DNA of 5,160 bases from positions 1-5,160 of the forward strand of contig JAAXIE010000139.1 in NCBI GenBank assembly GCA_012270525.1. Reading direction: 5' to 3'. The notes under the pieces were generated by a model, which worked only from the letters and a program-made list of their open reading frames with translations, searched no databases and had not been told where the DNA came from. The stretch's first letter is position 1; every line of letters begins with the position of its first letter. Source of the stretch: Dehalococcoidia bacterium (GTDB lineage Bacteria > Chloroflexota > Dehalococcoidia > UBA3495 > JAAXIE01). A program made the position numbers and the translations under genes. Positions 1 to 5,160 of this stretch are shown piece by piece.

Positions 1-423
1 CAGTCCAACAGCGGTTTCTCGGTGTTCCGCGGCCCCACCGTCGTCCTCAGTTGGGTCCTGCTGATGAGCAACATGTCGGAACTGTTCCCCAACCTGCGCT
101 GGGCCTTCATCGAGGCCTCATCCCAATGGGTCCCCTGGATTTACAAGGAAGTGGAGAACCGCTACAAGACCTCCGGCCGTGATTTCCCCGACGACCTGTT
201 CGGCTCCAAGAAGGTCTACGTGACCTGCGAGACCCACGACGACCTCCCCTGGGTGTTGAAGTACGCTGGCGAGGACAGCTTGGTGGTGGGCACCGACTAC
301 GGCCATCTCGACCCCTCCAGCGACACCAACGCCATTCTGGCCTTCCAGCAACTTGAGGAGATCGGCCCCGAGTCCAAGGAGCGCATCCTCCACCACAACC
401 CCAAGCGCCTCTACGCCCTCTAG
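1..423 (+). CDS. Amidohydrolase family 2 (PF04909-type) protein, C-terminal 140 codons only
   Basis: This gene enters from the left edge; its start and N-terminal metal-binding region are outside the window. Reading frame 1 is open from base 1 and ends at TAG 421-423. The GTG at 22-24 is an internal valine codon, because the residues before it (QSNSGFS) also match the downstream paralogue. Visible landmarks are FIEASSQWVPW (a conserved Glu on a beta-strand), GTDYGHLDPSS (the GSDxPHxDG-like motif carrying the catalytic/metal Asp of this superfamily) and the closing HNPKRLYAL (the usual NAxRLYGL end). It is 126/140 identical (90%) to the last 140 residues of the gene at 720-1829, with no gaps. 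Family members are TIM-barrel metal enzymes, either hydrolases or non-oxidative decarboxylases such as ACMSD, gamma-resorcylate decarboxylase and LigW. The substrate cannot be inferred. A strong terminator begins 22 nt after the stop, so this gene ends its transcription unit. Confidence 0.9.
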   Translation, partial: QSNSGFSVFRGPTVVLSWVLLMSNMSELFPNLRWAFIEASSQWVPWIYKEVENRYKTSGRDFPDDLFGSKKVYVTCETHDDLPWVLKYAGEDSLVVGTDYGHLDPSSDTNAILAFQQLEEIGPESKERILHHNPKRLYAL

Positions 424-444
424 TTCGTGGCTCAGGTCAGGCAA

Positions 445-482
445 GAGAAAGAGGCCCCCGTGATTCGGGGGCCTCTTTCTCC
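445..482 (+). terminator. Strong rho-independent terminator after the first amidohydrolase
   Basis: A perfect 16-bp inverted repeat (445-460 with 466-481) encloses a 5-nt loop, TGATT. The core is GGCCCCCG/CGGGGGCC. The outer part of the stem pairs an A-rich 5' arm (AGAAAGAG) with a T-rich 3' arm (CTCTTTCT), so the U tract lies largely inside the stem. That symmetry would let it act in both directions. It starts 22 nt after the stop codon and separates the two paralogues. Confidence 0.9.
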
Positions 483-605
483 TCTGGCCCATGCAAGCTG
501 AGGTCAAGCCGCGGGACTGTTCGGGTCGCGGCGCCCCCAATTCATCCCTACTGGCAGGAGCATGCTGGATACCGCAGCCTCAGCCCCGCTCCGACACGAC
601 CAAAC

Positions 606-634
606 TTGAAAGCGTCGACGATTCCCATTATGCT
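606..634 (+). promoter_or_regulatory. Candidate sigma-70-type promoter for the second amidohydrolase
   Basis: TTGAAA (606-611, 5/6 match to TTGACA) and TATGCT (629-634, 4/6 match to TATAAT) are separated by exactly 17 bp. Transcription would start near 641 and give a leader of about 80 nt before the ATG at 720. The position, after a strong terminator and before a gene with a good ribosome binding site, supports the call; the -10 match is only moderate. I see no clear operator or riboswitch in the rest of the 424-719 gap. A 5-bp hairpin (GAGCC/GGCTC, 675-689) lies in the leader and is too short to interpret. Confidence 0.45.
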
Positions 635-705
635 CGCCTCTCCAAGGCCTCAGAAGTTCTAGGAGAACAGCCCTGAGCCATTGCGGCTCCCATTGCAATA
701 GGAGC

Positions 706-712
706 AAGGAGG
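706..712 (+). promoter_or_regulatory. Ribosome binding site for the amidohydrolase at 720
   Basis: AAGGAGG lies 7 nt before the ATG at 720-722, a near-perfect Shine-Dalgarno at optimal spacing. It fixes the start codon of the 369-aa protein. Confidence 0.85.
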
Positions 713-719
713 CACAGTT

Positions 720-1829
720 ATGACAACACAGGTCAAACTGCAGGTCATCGACGCCGATGCCCATGTGGTGGAAACCGAACGCACATGGGACTATCTGGAG
801 CCGTCAGAGCAGAGGTACCGGCCCTTGCTCTATACCTCGCCCGACAGAAGCGTCAGCGATTACTGGCTCATCAATGGCGAACTTGGCCGGCCATATTTCC
901 CGCCCCTCAGCGAGCAGAAGATCGAGCAGATTTCCCAGAACGCAGGCCGGGCCATGGGTACACCCAAAGAGGCCCGCGAGATGAACGACATACAGATGCG
1001 CCTCGACCATATGGACGAGCTTGGCGTCGACGTCCAGGTCCTCCACAACACCATCTGGCTCGAGACCGTCACCACTTGGCCTGACACTCAAGCCGCCCTG
1101 TGCCGTTCCTGGAACAAGTGGCTTGCCGACATCTGGAAGCAGGACAAGGGTCGCCTCCGCTGGTCCTGTGTGGTGCCCGACCTCATGGTCGACGAGGCTA
1201 TCAACCAGATCCGCTTCGCCAAGGAGAACGGGGCCGTGGCCGTTTGCATGAAGCCCCTGGAAGGCGACCGCCTCCTGACCGACCCCTATTTCCATCCCAT
1301 CTTCGCCGAAGCCGAACGCCTCGATATGGCCATGGCCATCCACATCGCCAACGGAAACCGGCGCAACGTCCGCCTCTGGACATCCACGCCAGCTCCGGGC
1401 GAAGGCCAGTCCAACTCCGGCTTCTCCGTGTTCCGCGGCCCCACCGTCGTACTCAGCTGGGTCCTGCTCATGAGCAACATGTCGGAACTGTTCCCCAACC
1501 TGCGCTGGGGTTTCATCGAGGCCTCATCCCAGTGGGTCCCCTGGATATACAAGGAGGTCGAGAACCGCTACAAGACCTCCGGCCGTGATTTCTCCGACGA
1601 CCTCTTCGGGTCCAAGAAGGTCTACGTCACCTGCGAGACCCACGACGACCTGCCATGGGTCCTCAAATACGCTGGCCCGAACAGTCTGGTCATCGGCACC
1701 GACTACGGCCACCTCGACCCTTCCAGCGACACCAACGCCATCCTCGCCTTCCAGGGGATGGACGAAATCAGCCCCGACGACAAGGAGCGCATCCTCTGCC
1801 ACAACCCCAAGGCCCTCTACGGTCTGTAG
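720..1829 (+). CDS. Amidohydrolase family 2 (metal-dependent TIM-barrel hydrolase/decarboxylase), complete
   Basis: A complete protein of 369 aa, a normal length for amidohydrolase-2 proteins. The ATG is set by an AAGGAGG site 7 nt upstream. Landmarks: the N-terminal IDADAHVVE (D11, D13, H15, E18), where the usual HxH is replaced by DxH; a strand ending CMKP (K178); MAIHIA with H208, the expected third metal ligand; FIEASSQW (E267); GTDYGHLD with D328, the conserved catalytic/metal Asp; and the C-terminal NPKALYGL. By analogy with gamma-resorcylate decarboxylase (Glu, His, His, Asp ligands), D13, H15, H208 and D328 could hold one divalent metal (inference). No signal peptide or membrane segment is seen, so it is probably cytoplasmic. 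It is the tandem paralogue of the gene ending at 423 and has its own promoter-like sequence. It ends 41 nt from the stop of the convergent minus-strand operon. Aromatic-acid decarboxylation or hydrolysis are both possible; the substrate is unknown. Confidence 0.93.
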   Translation: MTTQVKLQVIDADAHVVETERTWDYLEPSEQRYRPLLYTSPDRSVSDYWLINGELGRPYFPPLSEQKIEQISQNAGRAMGTPKEAREMNDIQMRLDHMDELGVDVQVLHNTIWLETVTTWPDTQAALCRSWNKWLADIWKQDKGRLRWSCVVPDLMVDEAINQIRFAKENGAVAVCMKPLEGDRLLTDPYFHPIFAEAERLDMAMAIHIANGNRRNVRLWTSTPAPGEGQSNSGFSVFRGPTVVLSWVLLMSNMSELFPNLRWGFIEASSQWVPWIYKEVENRYKTSGRDFSDDLFGSKKVYVTCETHDDLPWVLKYAGPNSLVIGTDYGHLDPSSDTNAILAFQGMDEISPDDKERILCHNPKALYGL

Positions 1830-1870
1830 AAGCCCTTGCCACCCGTCGATCGAAAGAAGGCTCGAAGCAG

Positions 1871-2618
1871 CTATTGCGACGGGAACCGAGACGTGGGCAC
1901 CACCTCGTACTCCACGACCGTGTGTTCTGAGTCAAGGATTTCCGTGTCGCCGTTCACGGAGTAGATGGCCTGCCGGTGAATCAGTGGCCTATCGGTGGTG
2001 TACTCCAGTTCCCAGCGAAGTGTGTCGCTGCTTCGAAAACACCACGCTGGCACTGCCATTCAGGGTTCGATGCCCCTTCACTGTGTAGCCTTCGGTTCCC
2101 GCCCGCACAGGCGCCCCCCAAACCGACGCCATCCAGCCCGTGATGGAACCGTAGTCCTCCCCCATCGGGGTATCCCACGTTGTATCGGCTAGCAGGTCAG
2201 TGGACCGGATGTTGCCATCCCGGTACACGACTATTCCCAGTTGGGTCCCGCTCTCCGACTTGACTTCGGTGACTGCCTCGGTCCCCACACCCTCCGCACC
2301 CACTTTAATCCGCGTGTCGTGGATGACGGTGTGCGGGTGTTGGGCACCCTCCTTGAGGGGCACCCGTGGCTCTCGCTGCCATTCCTTCACCCTGTAGTAG
2401 AGCACTTGGCCTGGCAGACCGTTCAAAAGGGCATCCAACTCTTGCTTCGCCGTAGTGCTCATCGCGGCTGCAGTTGCCGGGCCACTGCCTCCTACGTACG
2501 TAAGGAGCAGCCACATGACAAGCCCTAGCAGGGCAGCGATTCCAAGGGCTCCCAACACGACCCAAATCGTGCGAGAACCCTGTCCCCGGAGTGTTATATG
2601 TAGGCGGGGTCCAGGCAA
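1871..2618 (-). CDS. Single-pass membrane-anchored protein of unknown function, reading frame interrupted by a 1-base frameshift
   Basis: I do not recognise this protein. As sequenced it reads 209 aa from 2618 to a stop at 1989. The real C-terminus appears to lie in another frame (1871-2035). Removing one A from the AAAA at 2036-2039 (TTTT in the mRNA sense) joins F194 to RSSDTLRWELEY and gives a continuous 248-aa protein ending at TAG 1871-1873. Visible features: a basic N-terminus (R5, R11, R16), one hydrophobic helix at about residues 17-41 (WVVLGALGIAALLGLVMWLL), and then a polar, probably beta-rich domain outside the membrane with repeats of the VVYRDGN and LEYTTDRPLIHRQAIY kind. No lipobox or peptidoglycan anchor is seen. 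The start is TTG (2616-2618), the first candidate after an in-frame stop, with no clear Shine-Dalgarno; translation may be coupled to the gene 21 nt upstream. GTG at about codon 21 is an unlikely alternative because it falls inside the helix. It is last in the operon. The break may be a sequencing error, a recent mutation or a functional shift. Confidence 0.6.
2036..2039 (-). other. Probable frameshift site (extra base in a 4-nt homopolymer)
   Basis: On the coding strand the sequence is GTGGTGTTTTCGAAGC. Reading three Ts instead of four joins the 5' frame (ends 1989) to the 3' frame (1871-2035) without a stop and restores a 248-aa protein. The 3' frame after the junction (RSSDTLRWELEYTTD onward) has the same charged, beta-like character as the domain before it. 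The unshifted tail (SKQRHTSLGTGVHHR) does not look like a natural C-terminus. Confidence 0.6.
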
Positions 2619-2639
2619 CCAGACCCGCTGCCCGCAGCC

Positions 2640-3305
2640 CTAATAGGCCGCCACCGCCGCCCGGCAGCACTCCACATCCTGGTCGTCGGTGCCACCGCTC
2701 ACTCCCACAGCCCCCACAATGTTGGGAGTGTCCAACACCGGCAGACCCCCAGCCACGGCGATGATCTTCCCCTGCGACGAAACGATCATGCTCTGGAACC
2801 AGCTCTGGCTGGCCGTGGCAGCCAGTTGGGCCGTGGGCACCTGGAAGGTGGCGGCCGTGTAGGCCTTGTTGACCGCGATATCCACGCTCATGGGGCGGGC
2901 TTGGTCCATGCGCCCGAACGCGATGAGACGTCCCCCCTCGTCGACCACGGCCACGCTAACCGCTATATCCAACTCCCGGGCCTTGGCGTGCCCTGCCTGG
3001 ATCATGGTGATGGCCCGGTCGATGGGTACAGGCATGGGTTCCCCTTTCGTACGGCGGTAGAAGTCCGCGTTCTTGTCGATGTAGTTGCGCCACCTCTCTG
3101 GAACGTCAATGTCCAGAAAGATGGCCTCAACGGGACACACCAGGGCGCACTGCTCGCAGGCGATGCATATTTCGGGGTCGATGAAATACTGGTCGTCGTT
3201 ATCTGTGCTGTGAATGCAGTCGACGGGGCACACCTCAAGGCAGGTGGCGTCCTTGACTCCAACGCACGGCTCGGCGATGACGTAGGCTGAGAACTGGGAT
3301 GTCAT
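2640..3305 (-). CDS. 7Fe-type ferredoxin (FdxA-like) fused to a GlcG/HbpS (DUF336) domain
   Basis: A 221-aa two-domain protein. Residues 1 to about 86 form a whole ferredoxin resembling the 7Fe FdxA of actinobacteria and Azotobacter FdI. The cysteines are C14-x7-C22-x3-C26-P-x2-C30 and C47-x2-C50-x2-C53-x3-C57-P, followed by the family's VPERWxxYIxxNA tail. By alignment with FdI, C14, C22 and C57 would bind a [3Fe-4S] cluster and C26, C47, C50 and C53 a [4Fe-4S] cluster. Residues about 90-221 form a complete GlcG/HbpS-like domain: a helix with GHAKAREL, SVAVVDEGG, FGRMDQA, then NKAYTAATFQVPT and the signature AVAGGLPV...VGAVGVSGGTDDQD. That family includes heme-binding HbpS and the PduO C-terminal domain. 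No signal peptide is seen, so it is likely a cytoplasmic electron-transfer protein with a cofactor- or ligand-binding module. The ATG at 3303-3305 follows an AGAGGA that overlaps the stop of the upstream RdhA-like gene (8-nt gap). The partner enzyme is inferred, not shown. Confidence 0.9.
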   Translation of the reverse strand: MTSQFSAYVIAEPCVGVKDATCLEVCPVDCIHSTDNDDQYFIDPEICIACEQCALVCPVEAIFLDIDVPERWRNYIDKNADFYRRTKGEPMPVPIDRAITMIQAGHAKARELDIAVSVAVVDEGGRLIAFGRMDQARPMSVDIAVNKAYTAATFQVPTAQLAATASQSWFQSMIVSSQGKIIAVAGGLPVLDTPNIVGAVGVSGGTDDQDVECCRAAVAAY

Positions 3306-3309
3306 GTGT

Positions 3310-3315
3310 TCCTCT
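3310..3315 (-). promoter_or_regulatory. Ribosome binding site of the ferredoxin-GlcG gene, overlapping the upstream stop codon
   Basis: Read on the minus strand, AGAGGA overlaps the TAG (3314-3316) of the preceding gene and lies 4 nt before the ATG at 3303-3305. The arrangement supports translational coupling and fixes the start. Confidence 0.6.
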
Positions 3316-3946
3316 ATGCGACGGGAGGGTCGGGCTCCAAGGGCAACTCGGTGAGAATGGGGTCACTGAGATGTATCCAGCCCTTCTTGCCAGCGGCTGA
3401 AAAATGCCCGTCGGCACCCGGGCGACCCAACCCTGCGGCTTCCCCCACCTTCACCGGATCGGCACCACCGAAACTGGCCCGGTAGCCCAACTCCCGTATG
3501 TAGGCAGCCAGGTTGAAGCTGACCAGGTTGCCTTCCAGGCTCGCCACCCGGCCCGCCATGCCCTCGGTGCTGCTGGGGTCGTGGTCCGTCTGCACCCCGC
3601 AGATGATGACGTGCGGGTAGTCCCGCACTATCTCTTCGGCTGACCGCTGGCCCTGACCATCGCGCAATTCGTCGGGACGCACGTGTCCGGGCTGCAGCCG
3701 GATGATGCCCACCATGTCGACCCCCAGCCAGACCCCCAACTCCTTCATGTTGGCGGTCATGCCAGCGAGATCGGGCACCTCGGTCTTCACCGGGTATACC
3801 GCCCCCTCAGGCGCGGAACGTATCGCGGCCGACAGGTCGTTGCCGGGGTCGGACAGGGGACGGTTGACGAACCTGTCCCACAGAGGGTCTTTGTCCCGGA
3901 AGCCGAACAACCGGCCCAGTATGCCTTTGGACTCCAGCGGGGCCAT
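3314..3946 (-). CDS. Short reductive-dehalogenase-like protein: corrinoid-binding-type domain without Fe-S clusters
   Basis: A 210-aa paralogue of the N-terminal and corrinoid-binding part of the gene just upstream. Shared landmarks in order: KDPL near the N-terminus (19-22), a helix leading to LGVDMVGI (74-81; LGADIVGI-like in the paralogue), RDYPHVIICGV (108-118), LAAYIRELGYRA (146-157), AAGLGRPGADG (170-180) against AGLGEMGRNG, and IHLSDPILTELPL (191-203) against IHLSSPILTDMPL. It then stops, 7 residues after the point where the paralogue would run on to its first Fe-S cysteine. It has one cysteine (C116) and no cluster motif. There is no room for a lost Fe-S domain, because the ferredoxin gene starts 8 nt later; the protein therefore ends at a domain boundary rather than by a frameshift. 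The ATG at 3944-3946 is 5 nt after the upstream stop with no clear Shine-Dalgarno, so coupled translation is likely. No signal peptide or TAT motif. It could be a corrinoid carrier, an enzyme subunit using Fe-S clusters in trans, or a degenerate copy. Confidence 0.85.
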   Translation of the reverse strand: MAPLESKGILGRLFGFRDKDPLWDRFVNRPLSDPGNDLSAAIRSAPEGAVYPVKTEVPDLAGMTANMKELGVWLGVDMVGIIRLQPGHVRPDELRDGQGQRSAEEIVRDYPHVIICGVQTDHDPSSTEGMAGRVASLEGNLVSFNLAAYIRELGYRASFGGADPVKVGEAAGLGRPGADGHFSAAGKKGWIHLSDPILTELPLEPDPPVA

Positions 3947-3951
3947 GAAGA

Positions 3952-5160
3952 CTACTTGGCCCGCCCAGCCTTCTGCTGCTCCCGCTCCTTCAGCAGGTCG
4001 AACCGCCTCGTGTTCTCCTTGAGCGGGTGGTAGTAACCGATCTTCGACTTGGGATCGGGGGCTTCGTGGGCCCCGTTGCCGTTGCTCCCGTTCAAGCCGT
4101 TCTCGCTATGCCCGTTGGCACCGTGCCCATTGGCCCCAGCCCCGTTCTTGCCCGGCGTCTTGCCATGGTAGATCGCCGTGTCGTAGTCCAGCCACTTCAC
4201 CCGCTTCCGCGGCACCGTCCCCCAGAAGACGTCGTCGATCCACTTGAGGGGCCACACCACGCCAGCCCGCAGGGGCACCGGCGTCCACTTCAGGCTCTTG
4301 ATGGCCAGGTCGTGCCACCAGCGCCTCGGCTTGGTGTAGGGGCAGATGGTCACGCAGGACATGCACACTTCCCAGAAATCCATCACGTAGGCCCGCAGCC
4401 GGTAGCAGGTCTCCCAGTTGAGCTTGTACTTCTTGATCCCGTTGTGAACCACCTTGTCTTCCATGGTGATGCTGTTGGTGGGGCAGGTGGTTGCGCACTT
4501 GCGGCACCGCGCGCAGAAATCGCTGACCCCGATGTCGATGGGCTTGTCCGTCAGCAGGGGCATGTCGGTCAGGATGGGGCTGGACAGGTGAATCCGTGCC
4601 CCGTACTTCTCGGTGATCAGTATGCCGTTGCGACCCATCTCGCCGAGGCCCGCCGAGAGAGCCGTGGGCATCGGTTGGGCCAGGTTCCGTACCGCCGAGT
4701 AGCCCATCTCCTTGATGTACCGCACCAGGTTCTCGTAGATCGCCCCCAGCTTGGCTTGGCTGAAATGATAGGCATGGTCGCCGATATGGTGCCGGTGCGC
4801 CTGTATCTTGTCGTAGTCCCAAGCCACCGTGATGACTATGGCGTAGGGGTACCGGTCGGGAATCGACGTCCCCTGCTCCGCCTCGTTCTTCTGGGCCGTG
4901 CCTGGCACCGCCGAGAGGTTGTCCACCTCTGCCCCGTCGCTGTACAGGAAGGACGGGTGCACCCCGGTGATTCCCACGATGTCGGCCCCCATGTAGTGGG
5001 CCACCCGCTTGATGTGCTTGGTCAGCACCTTGGGGTCAGTCTCTTTGACTTTGTCATCGTTGATCTTGCCCTTGGGGGCCTGCCCCACGGCAAAGAAGGC
5101 CACGTTGCGCTTGTCGGCCGACGACTGTATGAACGATATTCTGCCCAGCGGGTCCTTGGA
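3952..5160 (-). CDS. Reductive dehalogenase (RdhA)-like corrinoid iron-sulfur protein, N-terminus outside window
   Basis: The frame is open to the right edge (402 codons visible), so the GTG at 5101-5103 is only an internal valine; the true start is beyond the window. Residues here are numbered from that GTG. Domains: a helix into MGADIVGIT (38-46); RYPYAIVITVAW (84-95); YIKEMGYSA (129-137); SAGLGEMGRNGILIT (150-164) and IHLSSPILTDMPL (171-183), the hallmark of the RdhA/QueG corrinoid-binding fold; then two [4Fe-4S] motifs, C197-x2-C200-x2-C203-x3-C207-P and C233-x13-C247-x2-C250-x3-C254-PYTKP, the RdhA arrangement. The C-terminal part holds Trp-rich segments, a Gly/Asn/His linker (318-347) and a charged tail ending QQKAGRAK. 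The family reductively cleaves carbon-halogen bonds using cobalamin; its relative QueG reduces epoxyqueuosine. I cannot assign the catalytic acid or the substrate. The gene is upstream of its short paralogue (5-nt gap). A TAT signal cannot be judged because the N-terminus is missing, and no rdhB is seen downstream. Confidence 0.88.
   Translation of the reverse strand, partial: SKDPLGRISFIQSSADKRNVAFFAVGQAPKGKINDDKVKETDPKVLTKHIKRVAHYMGADIVGITGVHPSFLYSDGAEVDNLSAVPGTAQKNEAEQGTSIPDRYPYAIVITVAWDYDKIQAHRHHIGDHAYHFSQAKLGAIYENLVRYIKEMGYSAVRNLAQPMPTALSAGLGEMGRNGILITEKYGARIHLSSPILTDMPLLTDKPIDIGVSDFCARCRKCATTCPTNSITMEDKVVHNGIKKYKLNWETCYRLRAYVMDFWEVCMSCVTICPYTKPRRWWHDLAIKSLKWTPVPLRAGVVWPLKWIDDVFWGTVPRKRVKWLDYDTAIYHGKTPGKNGAGANGHGANGHSENGLNGSNGNGAHEAPDPKSKIGYYHPLKENTRRFDLLKEREQQKAGRAK
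4063..4152 (-). repeat. Low-complexity Gly/Asn/His-rich linker inside the RdhA-like gene
   Basis: About 30 codons (residues 318-347 from the GTG at 5103) encode degenerate NG-x repeats such as GANGHGANGHSENG and LNGSNGNGAHE. At the DNA level this is an imperfect AACGGC/AACGGG-type repeat. It links the Fe-S/corrinoid core to a conserved-looking charged tail (about 348-383) and is probably a flexible tether. It has no counterpart in the 210-aa paralogue. Confidence 0.8.

Follow-up and report, generated by a model that had tools for sequence, protein, structure and literature searches.

Why should a bacterium encode the corrinoid-binding core of a reductive dehalogenase (RdhA) as a protein of its own, ending just ahead of the iron–sulfur (Fe–S) domain? 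The question is raised by a stretch of 5,160 nucleotides from a Dehalococcoidia bacterium (contig JAAXIE010000139.1, positions 1 to 5,160; hereafter the window), in which three closely spaced genes lie on the minus strand. FULL (5160–3952) codes for a full-length RdhA-like protein with a corrinoid core and two Fe–S cysteine motifs; its 5′ end lies outside the window and 402 amino acids are visible, the relative at locus L001 having 459. SHORT (3946–3314) follows after 5 bases, starts with ATG and codes for the stand-alone core of 210 amino acids. After a further 8 bases comes FDXG (3305–2640), coding for a ferredoxin fused to an HbpS-like domain. SHORT is a duplicate core that has lost active-site positions and is encoded beside a full-length copy. 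We propose that it is probably a vestigial, non-catalytic paralogue that is kept as a fixed heterodimer (pseudo-dimer) partner of FULL.

SHORT matches the reductive dehalogenase model TIGR02486 with an E value of 1.8e-6 over profile positions 112–199 of 314, its score of 28.1 bits being far under the curated cut-off of 160.35, and no Pfam family matches it at E ≤ 1. Its predicted fold is that of the RdhA corrinoid-binding core. This fold can be aligned through residue 505 of the catabolic RdhA of Nitratireductor pacificus (NpRdhA) and residue 322 of respiratory PceA, and the alignment ends seven residues ahead of the first Fe–S cysteine of PceA (residue 329, counted on the alignments). The original prediction of a stand-alone corrinoid-type domain that stops before the Fe–S domain is borne out by both the predicted fold and this boundary. 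The two [4Fe–4S] cysteine motifs of RdhA are absent: SHORT has one cysteine, and CxxC occurs in none of 108 aligned relatives. The Fe–S domain expected of the epoxyqueuosine reductase QueG is missing on the same grounds. The AGLG and IHLSDPILTELPL landmarks are retained, as had been noticed at the outset, in the segment running from AGLGRPGADG to IHLSDPILTELPL (residues 171–203; 3338..3436, minus strand, computed by hand from the open reading frame). In this alignment GLGEMGRNG of the full-length paralogue becomes GLGRPGADG, the core Arg of the GRNG of FULL being lost, and the HAYHF segment of the paralogue is missing.

To describe conservation, 54 of the 108 SHORT relatives were compared with all 53 rows of the FULL alignment, two of which are unpaired copies from genome G025 and most of which lack known neighbours, so that further rows may be unpaired. 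Tyr73, Trp114, His122, Arg123, His124, Asp128, Tyr131 and Glu174, all conserved in FULL, are kept in 0–2% of the SHORT rows and Arg177 in 4% (2/54). Gly58, Gly63, Gly153, Tyr154, Ala170, Gly171, Thr198 and Pro201 are kept in 96–100%. At the column of the catalytic tyrosine (NpRdhA Tyr426, PceA Tyr246) there is no Tyr in any of the 108 relatives. The column of NpRdhA Lys488 and PceA Arg305, the latter of which we take to be the PceA residue at the catalytic Lys/Arg position, contains Tyr (29), His (21), Gly (2), Glu (1) and Phe (1) in the 54 rows. SHORT thus has neither the catalytic Tyr nor the Lys/Arg of RdhA. As judged from these alignments, it has lost nearly all positions expected at the active site and has retained much of the scaffold. 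An altered active site had been anticipated from the change of GRNG to RPGADG and the replaced HAYHF segment, and the loss of the catalytic columns agrees with this.

Part of SHORT is under new constraint, as it has conserved residues that are not shared with FULL: Trp23 (108/108), Phe26 (107/108), Gly129 (108/108) and Gln133 (95/108). Trp23 is part of the N-terminal motif DPLWD (residues 20–24; 3875..3889, minus strand, again computed by hand from the open reading frame). The segment containing Trp23 and Phe26 is conserved and is predicted with low confidence when SHORT is modelled alone; the motif is a candidate partner-docking segment.

A protein search returned 124 homologues of SHORT at E ≤ 0.01, which takes it beyond a chance occurrence. 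The 120 that were listed are 33–100% identical to it, and 118 of these are 133 to 233 amino acids long. This search was restricted to lengths between 0.55 and 1.75 times that of the query, and the stand-alone character of SHORT therefore rests on genome searches and on the tree. The alignment used here, A2, contains 108 of the 120. P0012 and P0015 were left out for an apparent change of frame part way and P0118 (328 amino acids) as full-length-like; P0013, P0014, P0019, P0082, P0087, P0113, P0117, P0119 and P0120 were also left out. Ten columns are invariant in the 108 sequences. The ratio of nonsynonymous to synonymous substitution rates (dN/dS) of SHORT is 0.07 between the window and L001 and 0.21–0.28 in three closer pairs, the latter being the better guide because dS between the window and L001 is high (1.7). 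For FULL the ratios are 0.11 and 0.15–0.31.

The gene pair of SHORT and ferredoxin was also sought in other genomes and was found in 13 of them (G001, G180, G283, G222, G105, G024, G735, G739, G758, G766, G329, G423 and G437), all drawn from the phylum of the L001 genome, a metagenome-assembled genome of Dehalococcoidia that carries FULL, SHORT and FDXG. Together with the window these give 14 loci with a complete SHORT, and at 14/14 the order FULL–SHORT–FDXG is found on one strand, with FDXG directly downstream of SHORT. The genomes were searched by profile, free of a length filter, in overlapping sets. A complete SHORT was found in 6 of 294 genomes of the class, 4 of 400 of the phylum, 8 of 197 and 7 of 147 in two order-level draws and 3 of the 16 genomes that make up another order; in many genomes part of the first-look candidates was scored, so that absences are not firm. 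The class and phylum searches used a smaller SHORT alignment, A1, of 51 rows. G345, where the last part of SHORT and then FDXG are visible, and G458, where FULL is visible, are not among the 14 loci since contig ends intervene. FULL and SHORT are separated by a few bases at most loci and by up to about 300 in G105, and FULL of G024 is split into two overlapping frames, either by assembly error or in reality. Frames of 572 and 585 amino acids in G739 and G758 were considered as natural fusions of SHORT to its partner and rejected, as they are an open out-of-frame stretch over the upstream FULL.

In the core-domain tree SHORT forms one clade (support 100/100) and FULL, including every paired copy sampled, another (95/81). 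The two join at 100/99, and both unpaired copies from G025 branch outside them. A quick tree gives 99 for the joint clade and 100 for SHORT. The trees contain 27 or 18 SHORT rows, and two long-branch outgroup rows were dropped except in the quick tree. With other RdhA-like proteins as outgroup, the tree points to a single origin of SHORT, by duplication of a FULL ancestor once the G025 type had branched off. In G025 each of the two FULL-like copies (L038, 8141–9713; L039, 9057–10628) stands without SHORT and is followed by a ferredoxin of 94 amino acids, an arrangement that is likely to be the state before the duplication. As the G025 type already has an adjoining ferredoxin, this protein probably did not come in as a substitute for the domain that SHORT lacks. 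Two adjacent full-length RdhA-like genes were also observed at L022 (G134, contig C111); in the tree they cluster with the core of NpRdhA.

FULL itself has the core fold and the two Fe–S cysteine motifs of RdhA and, truncated by the window, scores 157.7 bits against TIGR02486 (cut-off 160.35). Members of its family are named 'reductive dehalogenase', 'ferredoxin' or 'epoxyqueuosine reductase QueG' in one and the same source. The column of NpRdhA Tyr426 and PceA Tyr246 is occupied by Gln (34), Ala (10), Gly (3), Leu (3) and Ser (2), the five commonest residues and 52 of the 53 rows; at that of Lys488 and Arg305 the profile alignment has His in 50 and Gln in 3 of 53. The catalytic Tyr and Lys/Arg of RdhA are thus not found in FULL either. 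Among 18 further RdhA-like rows from the same class these columns contain Tyr (14/18) and Arg or Lys (18/18), and a section of PMC7565698 gives Tyr426 and Lys488 of NpRdhA a catalytic role. FULL has an invariant Tyr131 (53/53) one turn earlier, in the column of NpRdhA Ser422, and a conserved HRHxIGDxAYH motif. Because its active-site columns are non-canonical, FULL may or may not remove halogen. It represents an RdhA-like clade with an active site unlike that of a known dehalogenase, which matters when dehalogenation genes are counted in environmental genomes.

The original prediction that the next gene supplies a ferredoxin is confirmed by the domain matches of FDXG, to PF00037 (Fer4, 35.1 bits) and PF03928 (HbpS-like/GlcG, E value 2.3e-33), both above the Pfam cut-offs. 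The nearest models for its ferredoxin part are those of FdxA, with 87.3 bits for FdxA_Actino and 58.5 bits for the other, below the cut-offs of 125 and 135. In the part of PMC4923194 consulted, HbpS of Streptomyces reticuli binds aquo-cobalamin with a dissociation constant of 34 µM and the C-terminal domain of PduO with aquo-cobalamin gives a pink band on a native gel. FDXG may thus have a role in cofactor handling besides supplying electrons. At L049 in G329 an extra open reading frame (8013–8411, plus strand) that matches the HbpS portion of FDXG is situated immediately 5′ of FULL, besides the downstream fusion.

Taken as a model, SHORT would occupy the place of the second protomer in homodimeric respiratory RdhAs, or that of the vestigial domain fused into the chain of catabolic NpRdhA. 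The corrinoid and both Fe–S clusters would be in FULL alone, the ferredoxin of FDXG would feed in electrons and the HbpS domain may help to load or hold the corrinoid. We infer that SHORT is inactive and holds no corrinoid, and that it pairs physically with FULL through a defined interface; the role of the ferredoxin and the nature of the substrate are to be taken as equally conditional. Several observations weigh against this model. Gene adjacency by itself is also compatible with a chaperone or a regulator, and the predicted pairing of FULL and SHORT is not strict from the side of FULL, a second copy of which occurs without SHORT in G758 (L077). The division into lost and kept positions in SHORT is not clean either, as Lys51 (65%), Gly173 and Gly179 (65%), Gly187 (59%) and Pro207 (54%) are partly retained. 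In our own mapping a His of SHORT in the window, with His in 21 of 54 rows, aligns with a corrinoid-contacting His of PceA, and weak binding of corrinoid by SHORT is therefore still conceivable. Finally, with FULL devoid of the canonical catalytic residues, the dehalogenase frame itself may be wrong. A bolder and rather tentative possibility is that the three genes define a new class of heteromeric corrinoid/Fe–S enzyme, in which FULL, with its HRHxIGDxAYH motif, an invariant Tyr at a distance of one helical turn and a His at the Lys/Arg position, would need both the dead twin SHORT and a dedicated ferredoxin–HbpS protein whose HbpS domain binds cobalamin and which loads or reduces the cofactor, maybe acting on a substrate other than an organohalide.

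Other roles for SHORT were weighed against that of a fixed non-catalytic partner. It is unlikely, though worth keeping in mind, that SHORT serves FULL as a factor for corrinoid handling or assembly, docking on it transiently to load or protect the cofactor, and is not a permanent subunit. The parallel here is human B12 trafficking, where CblD docks on CblC. Less probable still is a regulatory, substrate-sensing subunit that would act allosterically on FULL, with a pocket that takes the substrate or some other ligand in place of the corrinoid: the new constraint on Trp23, Phe26, Gly129 and Gln133 would suit such a role, but it could be that of an interface only, and no ligand pocket is indicated. 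The original prediction had favoured a split reductive dehalogenase, in which SHORT binds corrinoid and does the chemistry while the separate ferredoxin replaces its Fe–S domain. That SHORT terminates at the Fe–S boundary and is followed by a ferredoxin gene speaks for it, but we reject this reading as very improbable because FULL keeps its own two Fe–S motifs and because the outgroup copies L038 and L039, which have no SHORT, have a ferredoxin gene behind them already. Furthermore, a full-length copy adjoins SHORT at 14/14 loci, the Tyr426/Tyr246 column is without Tyr throughout the 108 relatives and Arg177 survives in 2 of 54 rows.

The least credible alternative is a decaying duplicate without function. 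The missing C-terminal domain and the missing usual active site would be expected of one, and the original prediction had allowed for a degraded copy should homologues elsewhere always carry the Fe–S domain. They do not: 13 genomes have a complete stand-alone SHORT, and decay is rejected because of the identical cassette at 14/14 loci and a dN/dS well below 1. The 124 relatives, reaching down to about 33% identity, and the ten invariant columns argue in the same direction. A 'corrinoid-binding scaffold with a new role' had been put forward as well, and of this the scaffold role is likely and the binding of corrinoid unlikely.

A comparison of the wider neighbourhoods at 10 of the 14 loci shows them to vary, for the most part, from lineage to lineage. 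Scans of 20 neighbouring proteins gave matches to amidohydrolases, luciferase-like monooxygenases, a Rieske protein, HpaB and short-chain dehydrogenases/reductases, among others, and these domain matches suggest a role in the catabolism of organic compounds. In the window, a tandem pair of amidohydrolase-like genes on the plus strand (1–423 and 720–1829) converges with the cassette. The two are 90% identical over the 140 amino acids visible of the first, PF04909 was found for the second, and such a pair also adjoins the cassette in L001. On the minus strand, 1989–2618 is an open reading frame of 209 amino acids with a putative transmembrane segment near its start, seen by eye. Scans against domain libraries gave no family above cut-off for it, and the corresponding 97-base gap of L001 has no space for it.

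Among the listed titles and abstract openings of the open-access literature we found neither a stand-alone vestigial RdhA subunit nor the FULL–SHORT–FDXG cassette. The RdhAs described in the parts of this literature consulted either pair two catalytic subunits as a homodimer or have a dead copy fused into a single chain. If our model is correct, a separately encoded and conserved dead subunit would add a third arrangement to these two, and the purpose of the non-catalytic half could be tested by adding or omitting a separate protein. The CblC/CblD pair for B12 processing has no sequence match to SHORT at E ≤ 1, and its Z score is in the range of common arrangements. QueG is catalytic and has an Fe–S domain, and by profile SHORT is closer to RdhA. 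In PceA2B2 the contact between the two PceA chains is the largest, as stated in an extract of PMC10624902; unlike the proposed FULL–SHORT pair, the protomers of the respiratory PceA homodimer are identical and both catalytic. The best analogy is the vestigial N-terminal domain of NpRdhA (PDB entries 4RAS and 6ZXU), which, according to a portion of PMC10463259, does not bind cobalamin and imitates the protomer interface. Like SHORT, it is a duplicated RdhA cobalamin core that has lost its active-site residues, but it shares a single fused chain with the catalytic core, whereas SHORT is a separate gene at 14/14 loci. The SHORT profile matches the vestigial half of NpRdhA with 34.9 bits and the catalytic half with 41.9; the FULL profile gives 2.6–2.7 bits per piece for the former compared with 128.5 for the latter. 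When both halves are included in the tree, the vestigial half joins the NpRdhA core (98/94), and SHORT remains beside FULL (100/99). A topology constrained to unite SHORT with the vestigial half in one clade gives p = 0.048 in the approximately unbiased test, which is borderline and involves long branches. By the tree, SHORT would probably be a second origin of the pseudo-dimer, and the two proteins are likely to have arrived independently at one design, fused in NpRdhA and encoded by a separate gene in SHORT.
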